This document shows positions 7,336-39,848 of a stretch of 51,329 bases of DNA, one piece after another. This DNA comes from an uncultured Clostridia bacterium. GTDB lineage: Bacteria > Bacillota > Clostridia > Christensenellales > CAG-314. The translations under genes were made by a program, and so were the position numbers. The notes under the pieces are model-generated. The model did no database searches and was not told where the DNA came from. It saw only the letters and a list, made by a program, of their open reading frames with translations. Location of the stretch: contig CANQGD010000008.1 of assembly GCA_947601445.1 (NCBI GenBank), forward strand, positions 1-51,329. The letters are read 5' to 3'. Positions within the stretch are counted from its first letter, which is position 1; each line of letters starts with the position of its first letter.

Positions 7336-8646
7336 GTGGCAGCATTTTCAAATCTGACAGACAGAATAAATCACGTTTTTGCCAAACTGCGCAATCGCGG
7401 TGCTTTGACCGAGTTGGAGATCAAACAGGCTATGCGTGAAGTACGTGTTGCCTTGTTGGAGGCTGACGTTAATTTCACCGTAGCAAAAGATTTTATCAAC
7501 AAAGTGACCGAACTTGCGATAGGCGAAGAAATATTGAAAAGTCTCACGCCGGGGCAGCAAGTTATAAAAATAGTCAACGAACAGTTGATAGAATTGCTCG
7601 GGTCCACGCAAAGCAAGTTGGGCGTCAGTCCAAAATTGCCCACAGTAATTATGATGTGCGGATTACAAGGCGCAGGCAAAACCACAATGTGCGGCAAATT
7701 GGCGTTGTATTTGCAAAAACAAGGCAAACGTGTGTTGTTGTGCGCCGATGATATTTATCGTCCCGCGGCTATCAAGCAGTTGGAAATCGTTGCGTCAAAA
7801 GTAAAAGCGGGCTTTTTCGAAATGGGACAAAGCAATCCCGCCAAAATTGCGCAAAGCGCCGTGACTTTCGCCGAAAAAAACGGTTACGACACGGTGATAA
7901 TAGACACTGCCGGTCGTCTGCACATCAACGAAGAGTTGATGAACGAGCTTAAAACAATCAAAAACACCGTAAACGTATACGAAACGCTCCTTGTTGTAGA
8001 TTCTATGACTGGACAGGATGCGGTAAACGTCGCCAAAACTTTCGACGAGCAGTTGGATGTTACCGGCGTAATAATGACGAAATTGGACGGTGACACACGC
8101 GGCGGAGCCACTTTATCTATCAAAGCCGTTACGGGTAAGCCCATCAAGTTTGCAGGTACCGGCGAAAAAATGGAAGACCTCGAACCGTTTCATCCCGACC
8201 GAATGGCTTCGCGAATTTTGGGTATGGGTGACGTGCTTACCCTTATCGAGAAAGCGCAAACGGCAATCGATGAAGAACAAGCGCTCAAAATGGCGAAAAA
8301 ATTGCGTGAATCGAACTTTGATTTGAACGATTATCTCGAACAATTTGAGCACGTGGCTAAAATGGGAGACTTAAATGACATTGTCGGAATGATTCCCGGC
8401 GCCGGAAGGTTGAAACTCGGTGATAAAAAGATTGACGAAACGCAAATCAAACGTAACAAGGCAATAATTCAATCAATGACAAAAGAGGAGCGTTCAAATC
8501 CTAAATTGCTCAACTATTCGCGCCGAAAGCGTATAGCTAAGGGGTGCGGTTTGCAGGTGCAAGACGTAAATCGTTTGATAAAACAGTTTGAACAAACTTG
8601 CGATATGATGAAGAAGATGGCAAAATCCAAGCGTTTGCCATTCTAA
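7336..8646 (+). CDS. ffh: signal recognition particle protein Ffh
   Basis: Ffh (436 residues) binds signal sequences on ribosomes and delivers them to FtsY together with SRP RNA. It has the N domain, the G domain (GLQGAGKTT at about 109-117; DIYRPAAIKQLE; DTAGR; TKLDGDTRGG) and the Met-containing M domain with the RNA-binding helix-turn-helix near SRRKRIAKGCGLQVQDVNRLIKQF written in pieces as SRRKRIAKG and VQDVNRLIKQF. The start is GTG at 7336, 5 bases after AAGGAG; a nearby ATG at 7334 is out of frame. It lies in one transcript with ylxM and probably with rpsP onward. Confidence 0.97.
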   Translation: MAAFSNLTDRINHVFAKLRNRGALTELEIKQAMREVRVALLEADVNFTVAKDFINKVTELAIGEEILKSLTPGQQVIKIVNEQLIELLGSTQSKLGVSPKLPTVIMMCGLQGAGKTTMCGKLALYLQKQGKRVLLCADDIYRPAAIKQLEIVASKVKAGFFEMGQSNPAKIAQSAVTFAEKNGYDTVIIDTAGRLHINEELMNELKTIKNTVNVYETLLVVDSMTGQDAVNVAKTFDEQLDVTGVIMTKLDGDTRGGATLSIKAVTGKPIKFAGTGEKMEDLEPFHPDRMASRILGMGDVLTLIEKAQTAIDEEQALKMAKKLRESNFDLNDYLEQFEHVAKMGDLNDIVGMIPGAGRLKLGDKKIDETQIKRNKAIIQSMTKEERSNPKLLNYSRRKRIAKGCGLQVQDVNRLIKQFEQTCDMMKKMAKSKRLPF

Positions 8647-8662
8647 AAAAGAAAGATAAAAT
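8635..8662 (+). promoter_or_regulatory. possible internal promoter before rpsP
   Basis: TTGCCA (8635-8640), 16-base spacer, TAAAAT (8657-8662), spanning the ffh stop codon. The match is fair only. Confidence 0.4.
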
Positions 8663-8699
8663 ATCTATAATATAAATTATTACATTGGAGGAACAAAAA

Positions 8700-8960
8700 A
8701 TGGCAGTAAAAATGAGATTGACAAGAATGGGTGACAAAAAAAGTCCTTTCTATCGCGTTGTGGTTATCGACAGTCACAAAGCTCGCGACGGTCAGTATGT
8801 GGACTTGGTAGGTACCTATGATCCGCTCAATGAAAAAGTAACCCTCGATGTCGAAAAGGCAAAGAAGTGGATTGCTTGCGGAGTTCAACCTACCGAGACT
8901 GTTCGCACTCTTCTTGTTCGTGAAAACATTCTCGAACCCAAAAAATCAAACAAGGCATAG
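8700..8960 (+). CDS. rpsP: 30S ribosomal protein S16
   Basis: S16 (86 residues), a small-subunit protein needed early in 30S assembly. The sequence MAVKMRLTRMGDKKSPFYRV with DSHKARDGQYVDLVGTYDP is characteristic. The ATG at 8700 follows TTGGAGGAA by the normal distance; an in-frame upstream codon at 8685 would put the ribosome binding site inside the gene. khpA follows after 15 bases. rpsP-khpA-rimM-trmD is the conserved order in Firmicutes. Confidence 0.97.
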   Translation: MAVKMRLTRMGDKKSPFYRVVVIDSHKARDGQYVDLVGTYDPLNEKVTLDVEKAKKWIACGVQPTETVRTLLVRENILEPKKSNKA

Positions 8961-8975
8961 TTTGAGGTGGAAAAG

Positions 8976-9206
8976 ATGTTGGAGCTTGTAACTTATATCG
9001 TTGAACACCTTGTTGACGACAAAAGCGCGGTGAACATTGTATCCGAAGAAAATGACGGCGTAATTACGTTGACTATCCATGTTGCGGAAGCGGACATCGG
9101 TAAAGTTATCGGAAAACAAGGGAAAATTGCCATGGCAATACGTACTTTGGCAAAATCCGTCGGCTCACGGGAAGGCAAAAAATATAACATCGAGATAGAG
9201 GATTGA
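8976..9206 (+). CDS. khpA: KH-domain RNA-binding protein KhpA
   Basis: A 76-residue single-KH protein (YlqC/KhpA). In streptococci KhpA pairs with KhpB/EloR and influences cell elongation and RNA levels. The GxxG RNA-contact loop is seen as IGKQGKIA within a compact type II KH fold. The ATG at 8976 sits 5 bases from GAGGTGG and gives the usual family length; the GTG at 8967 overlaps that site and was not chosen. A perfect hairpin at 9211-9236 separates it from rimM. Confidence 0.93.
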   Translation: MLELVTYIVEHLVDDKSAVNIVSEENDGVITLTIHVAEADIGKVIGKQGKIAMAIRTLAKSVGSREGKKYNIEIED

Positions 9207-9210
9207 CTGA

Positions 9211-9236
9211 TTTGCCACAAGTATTCTTGTGGCAAA
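9211..9236 (+). other. intercistronic hairpin between khpA and rimM
   Basis: TTTGCCACAAG (9211-9221) and CTTGTGGCAAA (9226-9236) form a perfect 11-bp stem with a TATT loop. There is no T run after it, so it is not a classic terminator. It ends 10 bases before the rimM ATG and occupies the place of its ribosome binding site. It could act in mRNA processing, partial termination or control of rimM translation. Confidence 0.75.
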
Positions 9237-9246
9237 ATCAATAATT

Positions 9247-9747
9247 ATGAAGCTGAAAATAGGCAAAATTTTAAAGGCGCAGGGTATAAAAGGCGAGGTA
9301 AAATTGGCTTGCTATTTGGACGATGTTTCCATGATGTCAGGATTGAAGAACTTTTATATCGGTTTGCAGGATTATGTCGTAGAACACATTCGCACGGACG
9401 GCAATTTTTGTTATGCCCAATTGAAAGGAGTGCTTGACCGAAATTCTGCGGAAAAATTAAAAGATATGGAAGTATTTGCCGACAAGGAATGTATTTCTTT
9501 GCCGAAAAACAGATTTTTTATTGATGACCTTTTGGGTTGTGAAGTGCATTTGAACAACGGAGAAACTATAGGTACCGTAACCGACGTGTTGCAATATGGT
9601 GCGGCGGATGTCTTTGTTTGTAAAAGAGAGGGTAAAACCGTTTCTTTTCCTTTTTTGAATGATTTGGTGGTTTTCGTGGATATAGAATCTAAAATTATAA
9701 CGTTGGAAGGTAAACGGTTTGCGGAGGTTGCCGTATATGAGGATTGA
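9247..9747 (+). CDS. rimM: ribosome maturation factor RimM
   Basis: RimM (166 residues) binds S19 and helps mature the head of the 30S subunit. The N-terminal RimM beta-barrel starts MKLKIGKILKAQGIKGEVK, and the C-terminal PRC barrel follows (IDDLLGCEVHLNNGETIGTV, in the usual place). The ATG at 9247 was preferred to a TTG at 9229 that lies within the hairpin. No good ribosome binding site precedes it, which is unusual here. trmD overlaps its end by 11 bases. Confidence 0.95.
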   Translation: MKLKIGKILKAQGIKGEVKLACYLDDVSMMSGLKNFYIGLQDYVVEHIRTDGNFCYAQLKGVLDRNSAEKLKDMEVFADKECISLPKNRFFIDDLLGCEVHLNNGETIGTVTDVLQYGAADVFVCKREGKTVSFPFLNDLVVFVDIESKIITLEGKRFAEVAVYED

Positions 9748-35238: not shown

Positions 35239-36518
35239 GTCTGTTATTGGATTTCAGGTCGGTGATGACAACTATCGGTTATGTATTGTTGGCATTTGTC
35301 GTGCTGATGTTCATGGTGTTGATACACGAAACGGGACACTATACCGCGGGAAAATTGTTGGGTTTTCAGATAAACGAATTTTCCGTAGGTATGGGACCTA
35401 AAATTTTTTCAAAAAAGAAAAAGAACGGAGAAATTTTTTCCTTGCGTTTGTTGCCGCTGGGCGGATTCTGCTCGTTTGAGGGGGAAGGAGAGGAAAATAA
35501 AAATCCCAAAGCGTTTAATTCTCAAAAACCTTGGAAGCGGTTGATAGTACTTTTCTCGGGGGCGTTGTTCAACTTTGTTTCGGCTATTTTGATTGCGATT
35601 ATCGTTTTTTCTGCATACGGCGAAACGGTGGTAGTCGTAAACAACGTGTATGAATACGCGCCTGCAAGCAACAGACAGTTGCAAACAGGAGATATTATTT
35701 ACAAGGTAAACGGAAAACGCGTTTATATGCTGGACAGCCTCGGAAGGTATTTCACCGACGATGAAATGTCCGTAACGGTGTTGCGCCCGCAAAGCGGAGA
35801 GAAATCTTATAGCGAAGTTACTTTGAACGGTGTTAAGAAAAAAGAGTTTTTCCCCGTTGTGCTTACCAAGGTGGACGGAGAATATATTTCTTCTGACGGC
35901 AGAAAATTGCAACTGAATGATACCGTATACAAACTCAACGGCATATTGCTGTCGGAAAGCGGTGATTTTGAACGAGCATTGAGACTTTCCGACGGTCGAA
36001 TTATGCTGACCGTAACGGACGGAAGCGCAACTTACGAGTACGAATTTGATAAAGAAACGTTTAATCGCAAGCTTGTCGCAGAGGAACAACCTTATACCGG
36101 TATAGGTATGTCCGTAACTTACGACAAATACAAATTCGGATTCGGAGAAGTGCTTCTGCGCGTTGTGCCGTATTGTTGTGAAGTCGGTATGCTTGTGTTG
36201 CGCACATTGGGCGGGTTGTTGACAGGCGCAGTAGGTATTGAAAGCGTCGGCGGACCGATTACGACAATAAGCATGACAAGTCAAATCGTTTCGACCGGGT
36301 TCGGCAATGTTTTGATGTTGATCGTTCTTATCTCCGTCAATCTCGCGGTATTTAATTTGCTGCCGGTTCCTGCTTTGGACGGTTGTCAAATGGTATTTGT
36401 ACTGATAGAGTGGATTGCGGGGAGACCTATCAACAGGAAAGTTCAAAGCTACATCAACGGAATAGGACTTATTGTTTTAATTGTGTTGATGCTGCTTATC
36501 GATATTTTGAAACTATGA
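35232..36518 (+). CDS. rseP: site-2 protease family zinc metalloprotease RseP/RasP
   Basis: A 428-residue intramembrane protease of the RseP/RasP type. The zinc motif HETGH is at residues 32-36 in the first membrane segment, and the second motif NLLPVPALDG is near the C-terminus. Between them is a PDZ region (about residues 130-185, YEYAPASNRQLQTGDIIYKVNG in part), with a second, less clear PDZ-like repeat (LNDTVYKLNG). In Bacillus RasP cleaves anti-sigma factors and remnant signal peptides. The ATG overlaps dxr by 7 bases; ispG overlaps its stop by 4. Confidence 0.95.
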   Translation: MLSLLLDFRSVMTTIGYVLLAFVVLMFMVLIHETGHYTAGKLLGFQINEFSVGMGPKIFSKKKKNGEIFSLRLLPLGGFCSFEGEGEENKNPKAFNSQKPWKRLIVLFSGALFNFVSAILIAIIVFSAYGETVVVVNNVYEYAPASNRQLQTGDIIYKVNGKRVYMLDSLGRYFTDDEMSVTVLRPQSGEKSYSEVTLNGVKKKEFFPVVLTKVDGEYISSDGRKLQLNDTVYKLNGILLSESGDFERALRLSDGRIMLTVTDGSATYEYEFDKETFNRKLVAEEQPYTGIGMSVTYDKYKFGFGEVLLRVVPYCCEVGMLVLRTLGGLLTGAVGIESVGGPITTISMTSQIVSTGFGNVLMLIVLISVNLAVFNLLPVPALDGCQMVFVLIEWIAGRPINRKVQSYINGIGLIVLIVLMLLIDILKL

Positions 36519-37558
36519 GAAAAAAAACAAAACAAATTTTTATAGGAAACGTCCCCGTAGGCGGAGGCAGTCCGATTGCAATACAGTCAATGACGAATTT
36601 GTCGGTGACTGACGAAGAAGGCACTATCGAACAGATAAATGCTTGTGCGCAATGCGGTTGCGATATTATGCGCGTGGCGGTACCCAATACAGAAGCGGCA
36701 AAGGCGTTTGCAAATGTGCGTAAGCGTTCGATTTTGCCGCTTGTGGCAGACATACATTTTGACTATCGTTTGGCTATTGCCGCGATGGAGTACGGAGCGG
36801 ATAAGATTCGAATCAATCCGGGAAATATGTCTCTCGAACAACTCGATTGCGTGATAGATTGCGCCAAGCAACACAACGTTCCAATAAGAATAGGCGTCAA
36901 CAGCGGTTCGATCAATCGTGAGGCGATGCAGTTTTGCAACGGCAACAGAGCGCAAGCGCTTTGTTTGAGTATGGAACGGTATCTGAGATATTTTGAAAAA
37001 CGCGGATTTGACAATCTTGTTTTATCCGTCAAGAGTACCGATGTGCGCGAAACCGTGGAAACAAACCGTTTGATAGCGGATTTCGGCTATCCGATACATA
37101 TAGGCGTGACCGAAGCCGGACTGCGCGAACAAGGTTTGGTAAAAAATGCGATAGGTATAGGCGCGCTGCTTTTGGACGGTATAGGCGACACGGTGCGCGT
37201 TTCGTTAACGGCAAATCCCGTTGAAGAGGTTCGGGCTGCAAAAGACATTTTGATTTCTCTCGGGTTGAAAAGAGGCGTAACGTTTGTATCCTGTCCGAAA
37301 TGCGGAAGGTGTTCCATTGACCTCGAAACCGTAGCGAGAGAGATTTATAGCTATATACAGAATATAGACAGAAACATTAAAATCGCGGTAATGGGGTGTG
37401 AAGTAAACGGACCGGGAGAGTGTAGCGATGCCGATTTGGGTATTGCCGGTGCAAACGGTAAATTTGTTTTTTTCAAAAAAGGCGTTCGATACAAAGTTGT
37501 TGCTTCGGATGTTGCGGTAGAAGAATTTAAGAAAGAAATAGACGGACTTTGCAAATGA
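36515..37558 (+). CDS. ispG: 4-hydroxy-3-methylbut-2-en-1-yl diphosphate synthase IspG
   Basis: IspG/GcpE (347 residues) is the Fe4S4 enzyme that converts methylerythritol cyclodiphosphate to HMBPP, the sixth step of the MEP pathway. The TIM-barrel part opens with GNVPVGGGSPIAIQSMTN. The C-terminal cluster domain has CPKCGRCSID and VMGCEVNGPGE, giving the ligand cysteines and the fourth-ligand Glu. The ATG at 36515 overlaps the rseP stop as ATGA; the longer open frame upstream lies inside rseP. The polC-like gene overlaps its end by 4 bases. proS, common here in relatives, is missing. Confidence 0.96.
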   Translation: MRKKTKQIFIGNVPVGGGSPIAIQSMTNLSVTDEEGTIEQINACAQCGCDIMRVAVPNTEAAKAFANVRKRSILPLVADIHFDYRLAIAAMEYGADKIRINPGNMSLEQLDCVIDCAKQHNVPIRIGVNSGSINREAMQFCNGNRAQALCLSMERYLRYFEKRGFDNLVLSVKSTDVRETVETNRLIADFGYPIHIGVTEAGLREQGLVKNAIGIGALLLDGIGDTVRVSLTANPVEEVRAAKDILISLGLKRGVTFVSCPKCGRCSIDLETVAREIYSYIQNIDRNIKIAVMGCEVNGPGECSDADLGIAGANGKFVFFKKGVRYKVVASDVAVEEFKKEIDGLCK

Positions 37559-39195
37559 TAATAGAGCAATTGCATAATTTATATCCAAATTTAGCAGACT
37601 TGCGCATGCGGGAAATTCGAGTTGATAAACAACAACGAAAAGTTTTTTGCGTTTTGTCTTACCCTGCATCGGAAGATTTTAACAACGCTATAAAGTCACA
37701 GATTGTTGAATTTATAAAAAACACTATTCCCAAGGGTTATTATTGTAATGTAAAATTCGCGGAAGATAATTTTACATTGATTTCTTTTACGCGCAATCTT
37801 ACGGATTTGATTAAAGAACATTTTCCCATTTATGCAAATATCGGAAAGCATCAAATCGAAACGCATATTGCGGATAAACAAATCGACGTTGTATTTAATG
37901 TCGGCGGCGTTACGAAGAAAAATATGGAAATGTCGGAGTTTTGCGAAAAACTTTCCGAGTTTTACAATGATTATACAAGCTATAAAGTCTCATTCGGTTT
38001 ACGTGAGGACGCGCAGCAAAAAACCGCGGCAGTGGAAGAACAGGAAAAACTTGTTCAGCTTGCCATAAACAGAGAGTTGCTGAAACCTTCCAGGTTTTTT
38101 CGCGTAAGCGGTCAAAAAGCGCTGTTTGGCAAAGAAATCGTCGCTATGCCGATGTATATCGCCGATCTGCGTAAACCTTTGGATAATTGTACTGTGTGCG
38201 GAGTGGTTTCAGCCAAAAGTTGTCGTAAAGCAAAAAACAATCCGTTGTTGTACGTATGTTCTTTCACTCTTACGGACGGAACGGGCGAATCTCTTCCTTG
38301 CGTTTTGTTTGTGCGCCTTCAAATTACCGACGTAGAAACAATAATGAGCGAAACGGGACGGGGCGAAGCGGAGGCTCGAACGCTTGCGGAAAAACGCATA
38401 TTATCCAACGACAAAAAATTAAAAGATATTTTGTGGCTTTCCGACGGAATGTCGGCGGTAGTTCGGGGCAAAGCGTGTTACGGACAAAATGGTCAATTGG
38501 AATTGCACGTTTACGATTTGTGCAGTTGTAAAATATATCCGATTGCCCGCAATTCGGAGTTTAAACGTCCCGTTGCCGACGAATATCTTTTGGTAAAGCC
38601 CGAAGATTGCGCAGAATACAGGCAAATAAACTTTGTCGATCAAACTTACGGAAAATCACTGCTCGACGACAAAGATTATGTTGTTTTGCATGCAAACGGC
38701 ATTTCTTTCGGCAACATAACGGAAGGCAAGATATACGCTATTTGCGGCGTGAAACTGCGCAACGGACATATCACACAGAAATTTTTCACGTATGTAAATC
38801 CGGAAACGGAAATAACCGATGAAAGAACTCTCGAACAGTGTCAAACCGCTTCAAGCAAACTGATTTTCTATCCTACGCTGACGGAGATTATTTCCGATTT
38901 GTACAAATTTGTCTACGGCAGTCGGCTCGTCGGAAACAATTTGCAGCAAATAGTGCAATTACTTGATTATTATGCGGCTCCGATGGATTACAAATTTTCA
39001 AACGAACTTGTAAATCAAACGGATTTGATCAGGGACTTGTTTGATAACAGCATTTTGGACGCGTCCGTAAATGCCGCCAAGTTGGAGGATGTCGCAAAAA
39101 AATGCAAAATCCCGTGCCGAAATCTTGTGTTTTGCTCCGAAACGGCGTTGACTGTCGCGCGCTGCATGGCAATGTTATCGGATAATTCAAAGTAA
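37555..39195 (+). CDS. PolC-derived protein without PHP or polymerase domains
   Basis: A 546-residue protein at the usual polC locus. Residues 1-200 resemble the PolC N-terminal regions, with EEQEKLVQLAINRELLK before an OB-like domain at about 205-330 (YVCSFTLTDGTGESLPCVLF). Residues 374-546 follow the PolC exonuclease (DnaQ fold) in outline: YVVLHANGISFGNI in place of YVVFDxETTG, GNNLQQI in place of HNASFD, and no final His/Asp motif. Thus the DEDD catalytic residues appear lost. The PHP halves and the whole polymerase are absent; Bacillus PolC has about 1,437 residues. The ATG at 37555 makes an ATGA overlap with ispG. The frame is intact with no sign of decay. It may be an accessory replication protein or a relic; the true replicative polymerase must be elsewhere. 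Confidence 0.8.
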   Translation: MIIEQLHNLYPNLADLRMREIRVDKQQRKVFCVLSYPASEDFNNAIKSQIVEFIKNTIPKGYYCNVKFAEDNFTLISFTRNLTDLIKEHFPIYANIGKHQIETHIADKQIDVVFNVGGVTKKNMEMSEFCEKLSEFYNDYTSYKVSFGLREDAQQKTAAVEEQEKLVQLAINRELLKPSRFFRVSGQKALFGKEIVAMPMYIADLRKPLDNCTVCGVVSAKSCRKAKNNPLLYVCSFTLTDGTGESLPCVLFVRLQITDVETIMSETGRGEAEARTLAEKRILSNDKKLKDILWLSDGMSAVVRGKACYGQNGQLELHVYDLCSCKIYPIARNSEFKRPVADEYLLVKPEDCAEYRQINFVDQTYGKSLLDDKDYVVLHANGISFGNITEGKIYAICGVKLRNGHITQKFFTYVNPETEITDERTLEQCQTASSKLIFYPTLTEIISDLYKFVYGSRLVGNNLQQIVQLLDYYAAPMDYKFSNELVNQTDLIRDLFDNSILDASVNAAKLEDVAKKCKIPCRNLVFCSETALTVARCMAMLSDNSK

Positions 39196-39392: not shown

Positions 39393-39848
39393 ATGGGTAA
39401 AGTCGCCGAAGAAGTCCGCAAATTGGTGGAGCCGATAGCGGCAGAATTCGGATTGGAAGTAATAGAAGTATTGTACGAAAAAAAATACGACGGAATGAAT
39501 CTTACTGTTGTTATTGACAAAGATGGCGGAGTTACCATTGATGACTGCGAAAAACTTCATCGTGCAATAGATAAGCCGTTGGACGATTTGGACCCGATCG
39601 ATACCGCTTACATTCTGAACGTTTCTTCTCCCGGTATAGATCGCCCTCTCAAAACGGAACGCGATTACCGCAGAAACATGAACCGAAAAATATTCGTCAG
39701 ACTTTACAAGCCTTTGTACGGGAAAAAAGTATACGAAGGAGTATTGACGGACTACGACGAGGAAACCTTCACCTTGGAAACGAAGGACAAACGCATTACA
39801 TTTAATAAGAAAGATACGGCCAAAATCGAGCCGATTATCGAATTTTAG
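39393..39848 (+). CDS. rimP: ribosome maturation factor RimP
   Basis: RimP (151 residues) assists 30S assembly. The N-terminal domain has EPIAAEFGLEVIEVLYEKK and the SPGIDRPLKTERDYRR segment (SSPGIDRPL is the family signature). A C-terminal SH3-like domain follows. A purine-rich site, AAGGGGGAC, precedes the ATG. It opens the rimP-nusA-ylxR-ylxQ-infB-rbfA operon, in the same order as in Bacillus. Confidence 0.95.
   Translation: MGKVAEEVRKLVEPIAAEFGLEVIEVLYEKKYDGMNLTVVIDKDGGVTIDDCEKLHRAIDKPLDDLDPIDTAYILNVSSPGIDRPLKTERDYRRNMNRKIFVRLYKPLYGKKVYEGVLTDYDEETFTLETKDKRITFNKKDTAKIEPIIEF

Follow-up and report, generated by a model that had tools for sequence, protein, structure and literature searches.

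A polymerase-less PolC with a degenerate exonuclease, kept at the polC locus of uncultured Clostridia, is a candidate non-catalytic subunit of the DnaE1 replisome

PolC (TIGR01405 / NF001688), a chain of about 1,400 amino acids (aa), is the closest described relative of the gene considered here, which lies in a 51,329-nucleotide stretch of DNA (hereafter the window; contig CANQGD010000008.1 of assembly GCA_947601445.1) from an uncultured Clostridia bacterium of the order Christensenellales. The two share a locus, a collinear N-terminal region, an OB fold and an exonuclease fold; the window protein, however, has only about 550 aa and lacks the PHP domain, the polymerase core, the HhH region, the C-terminal clamp motif and the exonuclease residues of PolC. 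A 2013 survey reported both PolC domain loss (exo-less PolC) and Clostridia that have DnaE1 only, but passages of that survey state that it demanded an intact polymerase region and discarded fragments lacking one, and a polymerase-less PolC class could therefore not appear in it (PMC3919608). We found no description of a polymerase-less PolC in the open-licence papers searched, as represented by titles, abstract openings and passages.

Two other systems invite comparison. Escherichia coli epsilon (DnaQ) is likewise a separate exonuclease-fold chain beside DnaE1 with a clamp motif next to its exonuclease (QTSMAF in epsilon, PMC4478557; a clamp-binding-like motif in the short family described here), and it has been proposed to have roles beyond proofreading (PMC4478557). 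In contrast to epsilon, the short family is derived from PolC, carries N-terminal and OB domains, places the motif before rather than after the exonuclease and, in the window's lineage, has no catalytic residues. The non-catalytic C-terminal module of eukaryotic Pol epsilon (Pol2) may be a functional analogue, as a dead former replication enzyme retained in the replisome (PMC6265327, PMC2669801), and catalytically dead modules are reported to be essential in that polymerase (PMC6265327); the Pol2 module, however, is an unrelated B-family sequence and is fused to an active polymerase.

The window gene is an intact open reading frame (ORF) of 546 codons with an ATG start and zero internal stops, flanked by ispG on its 5' side and rimP-nusA on its 3' side (Table 1). 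Its start overlaps the ispG stop in an ATGA at 37555-37558; the upstream genes are dxr, rseP and ispG, and the downstream genes rimP, nusA, ylxR and infB. An original prediction, made from the letters of the window and a list of its ORFs, had described this gene and overlap, the absence of PHP and polymerase, and a degenerate set of exonuclease motifs, and all of this proved correct. When aligned to full PolC, the window protein covers the N-terminal region, OB fold and exonuclease; PHP segments, polymerase core and HhH are absent from that alignment, the protein stops at the exonuclease, and its five DEDDh positions hold H, N, I, V and T where D, E, D, H and D are expected.

Derivation of these regions from PolC, which had also been proposed, is borne out by profile and fold comparisons. 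In a profile-profile comparison, the N-terminal halves of 19 full PolCs aligned collinearly with 23 genus proteins (probability 99.8, E 2e-29), and control comparisons with four neighbouring gene families gave probabilities of at most 2.3. The N-terminal domain matched full PolC weakly when compared directly (probability 57), and its link to PolC is secured because intermediate short forms match (98.8 and 97.7). The model of the window protein, in which a DnaQ fold is present, had PolC as its top Foldseek match (9qpc, E 4e-11). Among searches with the single sequence, Pfam gave a weak OB match alone and nothing for the PolC N-terminal region (neither the window protein nor seven intact short proteins matched the Pfam NI model, and one full PolC fell barely under its cut-off), NCBIfam ranked the PolC model fourth behind three other exonuclease families, and a PDB sequence search returned E. 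coli epsilon alone (E 0.44-0.82). KH-like and other alpha-beta folds were among the matches listed for the N-terminal domains; tau domain V and replisome proteins were not, an absence that is no evidence, and the relation of the PolC N-terminal region to tau domain V (DnaX) comes from the literature (passages of PMC12926913).

Homologues were present in 24 of 25 genomes of the genus, with lengths of 543-550 aa (one exception has an unclear start); the genome that had no match to the short protein (G016) is 79% complete. A contig search with the window protein alone retrieved zero relatives, and the alignment as query retrieved 23 loci. The 23 nearest named loci encode proteins with 39-68% identity to the window protein, and the same neighbours in the order dxr-rseP-ispG-X-rimP-nusA-infB occur in the window and in all 23. 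Most of these nearest relatives are metagenome bins labelled Clostridia or Clostridiales; several come from the gut of animals (colon of goat and sheep, cecum of roe deer), and one is Candidatus Fimimonas merdipullorum. Candidatus Fimimonas (L121) is filed under Myxococcota in the NCBI taxonomy, and two further loci (L114, L120) are titled Corallococcus sp.; in locus and protein they agree with this Clostridia genus, and the names look misplaced.

The original prediction that the gene is retained under selection is upheld by comparisons within the genus. In the closest pair, the proportions of nonsynonymous (pN) and synonymous (pS) differences were 0.11 and 0.71 over the whole gene and 0.10 and 0.62 over the dead exonuclease domain, and pN was far under pS in the eight closest pairs (pN and pS are quoted instead of a rate ratio, dN/dS, because synonymous sites are saturated in most pairs). 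Mean identity in the genus was 0.52 for the dead domain, 0.54 for the OB fold and 0.44 for the N-terminal domain. This substitution pattern indicates that the gene is under purifying selection in the genus, dead domain included.

A wider comparison shows how the gene arose. Among the matches listed for 200 genomes of the order, 69 had a full PolC, 101 a short form, 0 both and 30 neither, where full denotes a match over the PolC model cut-off and short a match running from the N-terminal region to the exonuclease on a frame of 500-714 codons; beside a full PolC, a dead short form that matches weakly could be missed among these matches, and one partial match on a 266-aa frame (G148) was excluded from the short count. 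The 30 genomes with neither include five with PolC in pieces, twelve of family f17, one of family f32 and incomplete assemblies. Full PolC was found in none of 19 searched genomes of the genus, and when the source genome and 30 relatives were searched, the seven of these 31 that passed the PolC model cut-off all lay outside the genus. Outside the order, 256 of 277 genomes of the class were over the cut-off among the matches listed, and full PolC is therefore taken as ancestral. Five genomes of family f71 outside the order (G261, G362, G424, G444, G461) had weak or no PolC among the matches listed; a further PolC-less lineage may exist there, though other f71 genomes have strong PolC matches.

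The short form sits where full PolC would be. The 76 short-form loci read had the usual neighbours on both sides in 64 cases and on one side in 12, and the ispG-rimP interval of sister families is occupied by full PolC. The 19 full-PolC loci of the order had these neighbours on both sides (9), one side (7) or neither (3), with rimP not found at several of the one-sided loci despite the stretch continuing. The window gene is an orthologous remnant of polC that was reduced in place; in most of the short-form families sampled, PolC is without its PHP, polymerase and C-terminal parts and retains its N-terminal domains, OB fold and exonuclease. In two genomes (G135 of f17, G074 of f11) the stretch upstream of rimP yielded no short form, and since the latter (L208) has no PolC over the cut-off, both forms may be lost there.

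Full and short forms were separate, genome G065 excepted, on a tree with 89 tips built from six neighbouring genes. Parsimony counted a single full/short change over 87 tips (13-16 with shuffled labels, 20 shuffles), a figure that depends on the basal position of G065 on that side; one change more would be needed with full PolC ancestral. G065 (L205, family f30) groups with full-PolC families and encodes, in reverse-complement frame 8002-9348, a protein of 448 aa with an intact exonuclease and no recognisable OB fold; it represents either a second, independent truncation or a genome misplaced on the tree. Among the short proteins at the polC locus, 41 had intact DEDHD residues, G065 among them and 15 families represented, and 34 had lost these residues; the 34 fall into three separate groups: a subclade of 29 in family f1 that includes the window, three proteins of f17 and two from a genus of f32. 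The dead sample is skewed toward the window's genus (24 of 34). Parsimony required three exonuclease losses over 71 short tips, compared with 19-29 under shuffled labels (20 shuffles); on this tree, the catalytic residues were lost independently in three lineages while the gene stayed at its locus. Degenerate exonucleases (e.g. SRSTE, STL-S or YEDHD for DEDHD) also occurred, by this alignment, in five of 19 full PolCs, from families f11 and f13 (L157 of G030, L152 of G075, L154 of G161, L156 of G196, L088 of G028), apparently at odds with what is reported in the 2013 survey of complete genomes (PMC3919608), and the PolC exonuclease seems to have died within full PolC too in this order.

Judging by gene content, DnaE1 is the replicase left in short-form genomes. 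The source genome had one DnaE1 match over the cut-off, and the original suggestion that a second polC or a dnaE copies the chromosome stands for dnaE and fails for polC. All nine PHP residues HHDHEHCDH, described as the 'active' PHP signature in passages of PMC12926913, were found in all 25 DnaE1 sequences, which come from 24 of 26 genomes (full PolC in 4, an intact short form in 14 and a dead one in 6); in the other two, DnaE was split or not found. With these residues intact, cells need not rely on the short protein for proofreading, and this would account for the loss of its nuclease. One genome (G043) has DnaE matches on two contigs (L174, L188) that are identical in score (1227.8 bits) and in frame length, probably through an assembly duplication.

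The source genome also encodes a separate DnaQ-like protein that retains the DEDDh residues, and the same family was found in 19 of 25 genus genomes and not in 6. We considered whether the death of the exonuclease coincided with a takeover of proofreading by a separate DnaQ; as a strict rule this is rejected, given the six genomes in which the family was not found. Small separate DnaQ-like proteins of the same genus have clamp-motif-like ends, C-terminal QTSLF in L094 (G010) and N-terminal GQSLFEF in L093 (G018).

Two short motifs bear on possible partners of the short family. In place of the lost PHP segments, its proteins have a linker between OB fold and exonuclease, in which the pattern Q-x-[S/D/N/T/G/A/E]-[LMIF]-[FLVIMY] occurred in 58 of 68 proteins (3.9 expected from shuffles), a count that includes two proteins (G196b, G052) without a linker and with no polC-locus neighbour found, which were later dropped. 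After their removal, 35 of 37 intact short proteins had the motif, as did 23 of 29 dead ones in f1 (the motif tables omit G045, which a contig end truncates), and intact short proteins had 18.7 matches per 1000 residues in the linker versus 0.69 elsewhere. The published clamp consensus is QL[S/D]LF, with positions 1, 4 and 5 reported as most important (PMC3919608). Full PolCs carry a clamp motif at the C-terminus (18 of 19), where none was found in the last 16 residues of any short protein. The second motif, D-[FLM]-[YFIL]-[KR]-[FY] on the helix preceding Exo II, was found in none of 19 full PolCs, in 34 of 40 intact short proteins (G065 left out) and in 33 of 34 dead ones (29 of 29 in f1, 2 of 2 and 2 of 3 in the other two groups); the dead f17 and f32 lineages, which were not used in finding it, retain it in four of five proteins. 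The OB fold differs as well: of the 29 dead f1 proteins, 27 have a segment of 137-140 aa with a helical insertion, versus 105-107 aa in the four intact ones. The insertion is not unique to dead f1 proteins, since a few members of other families have segments about as long (up to 138 aa in intact short forms and 130 aa in full PolCs). The linker motif, the descent of the dead copy from a widespread nuclease-intact short form and the three inactivations all go beyond the original prediction.

Table 1 Positions in the window of the polymerase-less PolC gene, its parts and its neighbours.
Feature	Position	Strand	Basis or remark
Polymerase-less PolC, whole gene, 546 aa	37555..39195	+	Intact ORF, genus homologues, fixed neighbours, purifying selection
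ispG, upstream neighbour, ATGA overlap	36383..37558	+	Longest ORF listed; true start may be further in
rimP, downstream neighbour, marks 3' side of polC locus	39393..39848	+	ORF list, locus comparison
N-terminal region, residues 1-155, two alpha-beta domains, the second resembling type-II KH folds	37555..38019	+	
OB fold, residues 181-330	38095..38544	+	
Helical insertion within OB fold, about residues 255-294	38317..38436	+	Helices 260-267, 271-293
QINFV (357-361), position of the short family's clamp-binding-like pentapeptide	38623..38637	+	
Pseudo-exonuclease domain, residues 373-546	38671..39192	+	
Degenerate Exo I, H379-A-N381 replacing D-x-E	38689..38697	+	Alignment
D-L-Y-K-F (448-452), short-form-specific helix motif, candidate partner-binding surface	38896..38910	+	Pattern counts
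Degenerate Exo II, NNLQQI (461-466) replacing HNxxFD	38935..38952	+	Alignment
Degenerate Exo III, V525 and T530 replacing H and D	39127..39144	+	Alignment

The family and its descent are well documented, whereas partner and role are inferred. Since the fold, OB domain, N-terminal domains and partner-like helix were kept under selection after the nuclease was lost, the short protein is best explained as a non-catalytic subunit of the DnaE1 replisome, a reading of the whole that we hold with some confidence and that agrees with the role originally envisaged. The intact short form may have been a proofreading subunit tethered to the clamp alongside DnaE1, functionally equivalent to epsilon, and the window version would retain the non-catalytic part of that job. 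Its N-terminal domains, its OB fold (probably on single-stranded DNA) and the pseudo-exonuclease surface containing D448-L-Y-K-F452 would hold or stabilise the DnaE1 replisome, with the window protein binding DnaE1, clamp or DNA, and proofreading would fall to the PHP domain of DnaE1 and perhaps, in the 19 genus genomes that have it, to the separate DnaQ-like protein too. The state of the linker motif in the window's clade weighs against this reading: the window protein has QINFV at the motif position, and across the genus Q357 is kept in 23 of 23 proteins and F360 in 22 of 23, but the canonical form Qxx[LMI]F is gone from all 29 proteins of the clade because the last position has become V (20 of 23 genus proteins). 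Two dead f17 proteins carry similar sequences before the exonuclease (Q-I-R-F-D in L202 of G079, Q-I-G-F-D in L203 of G100), and the motif may have drifted in parallel where the exonuclease is dead.

The drift of the clamp motif in the window's clade would also fit a protein that has left replication behind and whose KH-like N-terminal domain and OB fold now bind RNA, in step with rimP, nusA and infB. The resemblance of the second N-terminal domain to type-II KH folds and the fixed place beside rimP-nusA-infB also fit such an RNA or translation role, which we regard as unlikely, if the most credible of the alternatives. Somewhat less probable is a competitive regulator, in which the dead exonuclease, seated at the clamp or DnaE1, limits the access of DnaQ or PHP proofreading and so tunes the mutation rate: fold and linker position fit an exonuclease subunit, and a DnaQ-like protein with its DEDDh residues is available in the source genome and in most of its genus, but five of the six genus genomes in which that family was not found keep the dead protein. 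Purifying selection on the exonuclease domain could instead mean that nuclease activity persists through a rearranged active site; with all five DEDDh positions substituted, and substituted differently in the three dead lineages, this seems very improbable.

Explanations that deny the gene its place or integrity fare worse. The original prediction derived the protein from a PolC duplicate, with a second polC or a dnaE as replicase; DnaE1 is indeed present, but we give this origin almost no credence, as the short form occupies the polC locus itself, with the usual neighbours on at least one side at all 76 short loci, full PolC was missing from every genus genome searched, and the two forms never occurred together among the matches listed for the 200 genomes. 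A pseudogene, or an assembly error that removed the rest of polC, might be suspected in a 1.6-Mb draft genome of 59 contigs that is 92% complete, but this is refuted by near-equal-length homologues, 40-68% identical, in all but one of the genus genomes and by the low pN relative to pS in the closest pairs. The original interpretation as a whole is thus partly supported.

About half of the order genomes sampled (101 of 200, among the matches listed) have only the front portion of PolC and no PolC polymerase, and the scheme set out in passages of PMC12926913 would count such genomes as having DnaE1 alone. This bears on the division of work between PolC and DnaE1 in Clostridia, a question left open in the 2013 survey (PMC3919608), and bacteria with the short form should lack the binding site for inhibitors of the PolC polymerase, such as ibezapolstat. 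Because the nuclease died repeatedly while the protein was retained, nature has run an experiment in which the structural role of a replisome subunit is set apart from its catalytic one. The data may even describe a fourth bacterial replicase arrangement, which we consider evenly poised between right and wrong: DnaE1 with a polymerase-stripped PolC, first as a clamp-tethered proofreader and then, in three lineages, as a needed non-catalytic subunit. If true, bacteria would have their own counterpart of the dead Pol epsilon module, and part of PolC's importance would lie outside its polymerase. Many gut Clostridia, a large group, carry the short form, and in the source genome's lineage its nuclease is additionally dead; since the shortened protein nevertheless remains intact at its original locus, it probably still serves the replication machinery in a non-catalytic capacity.
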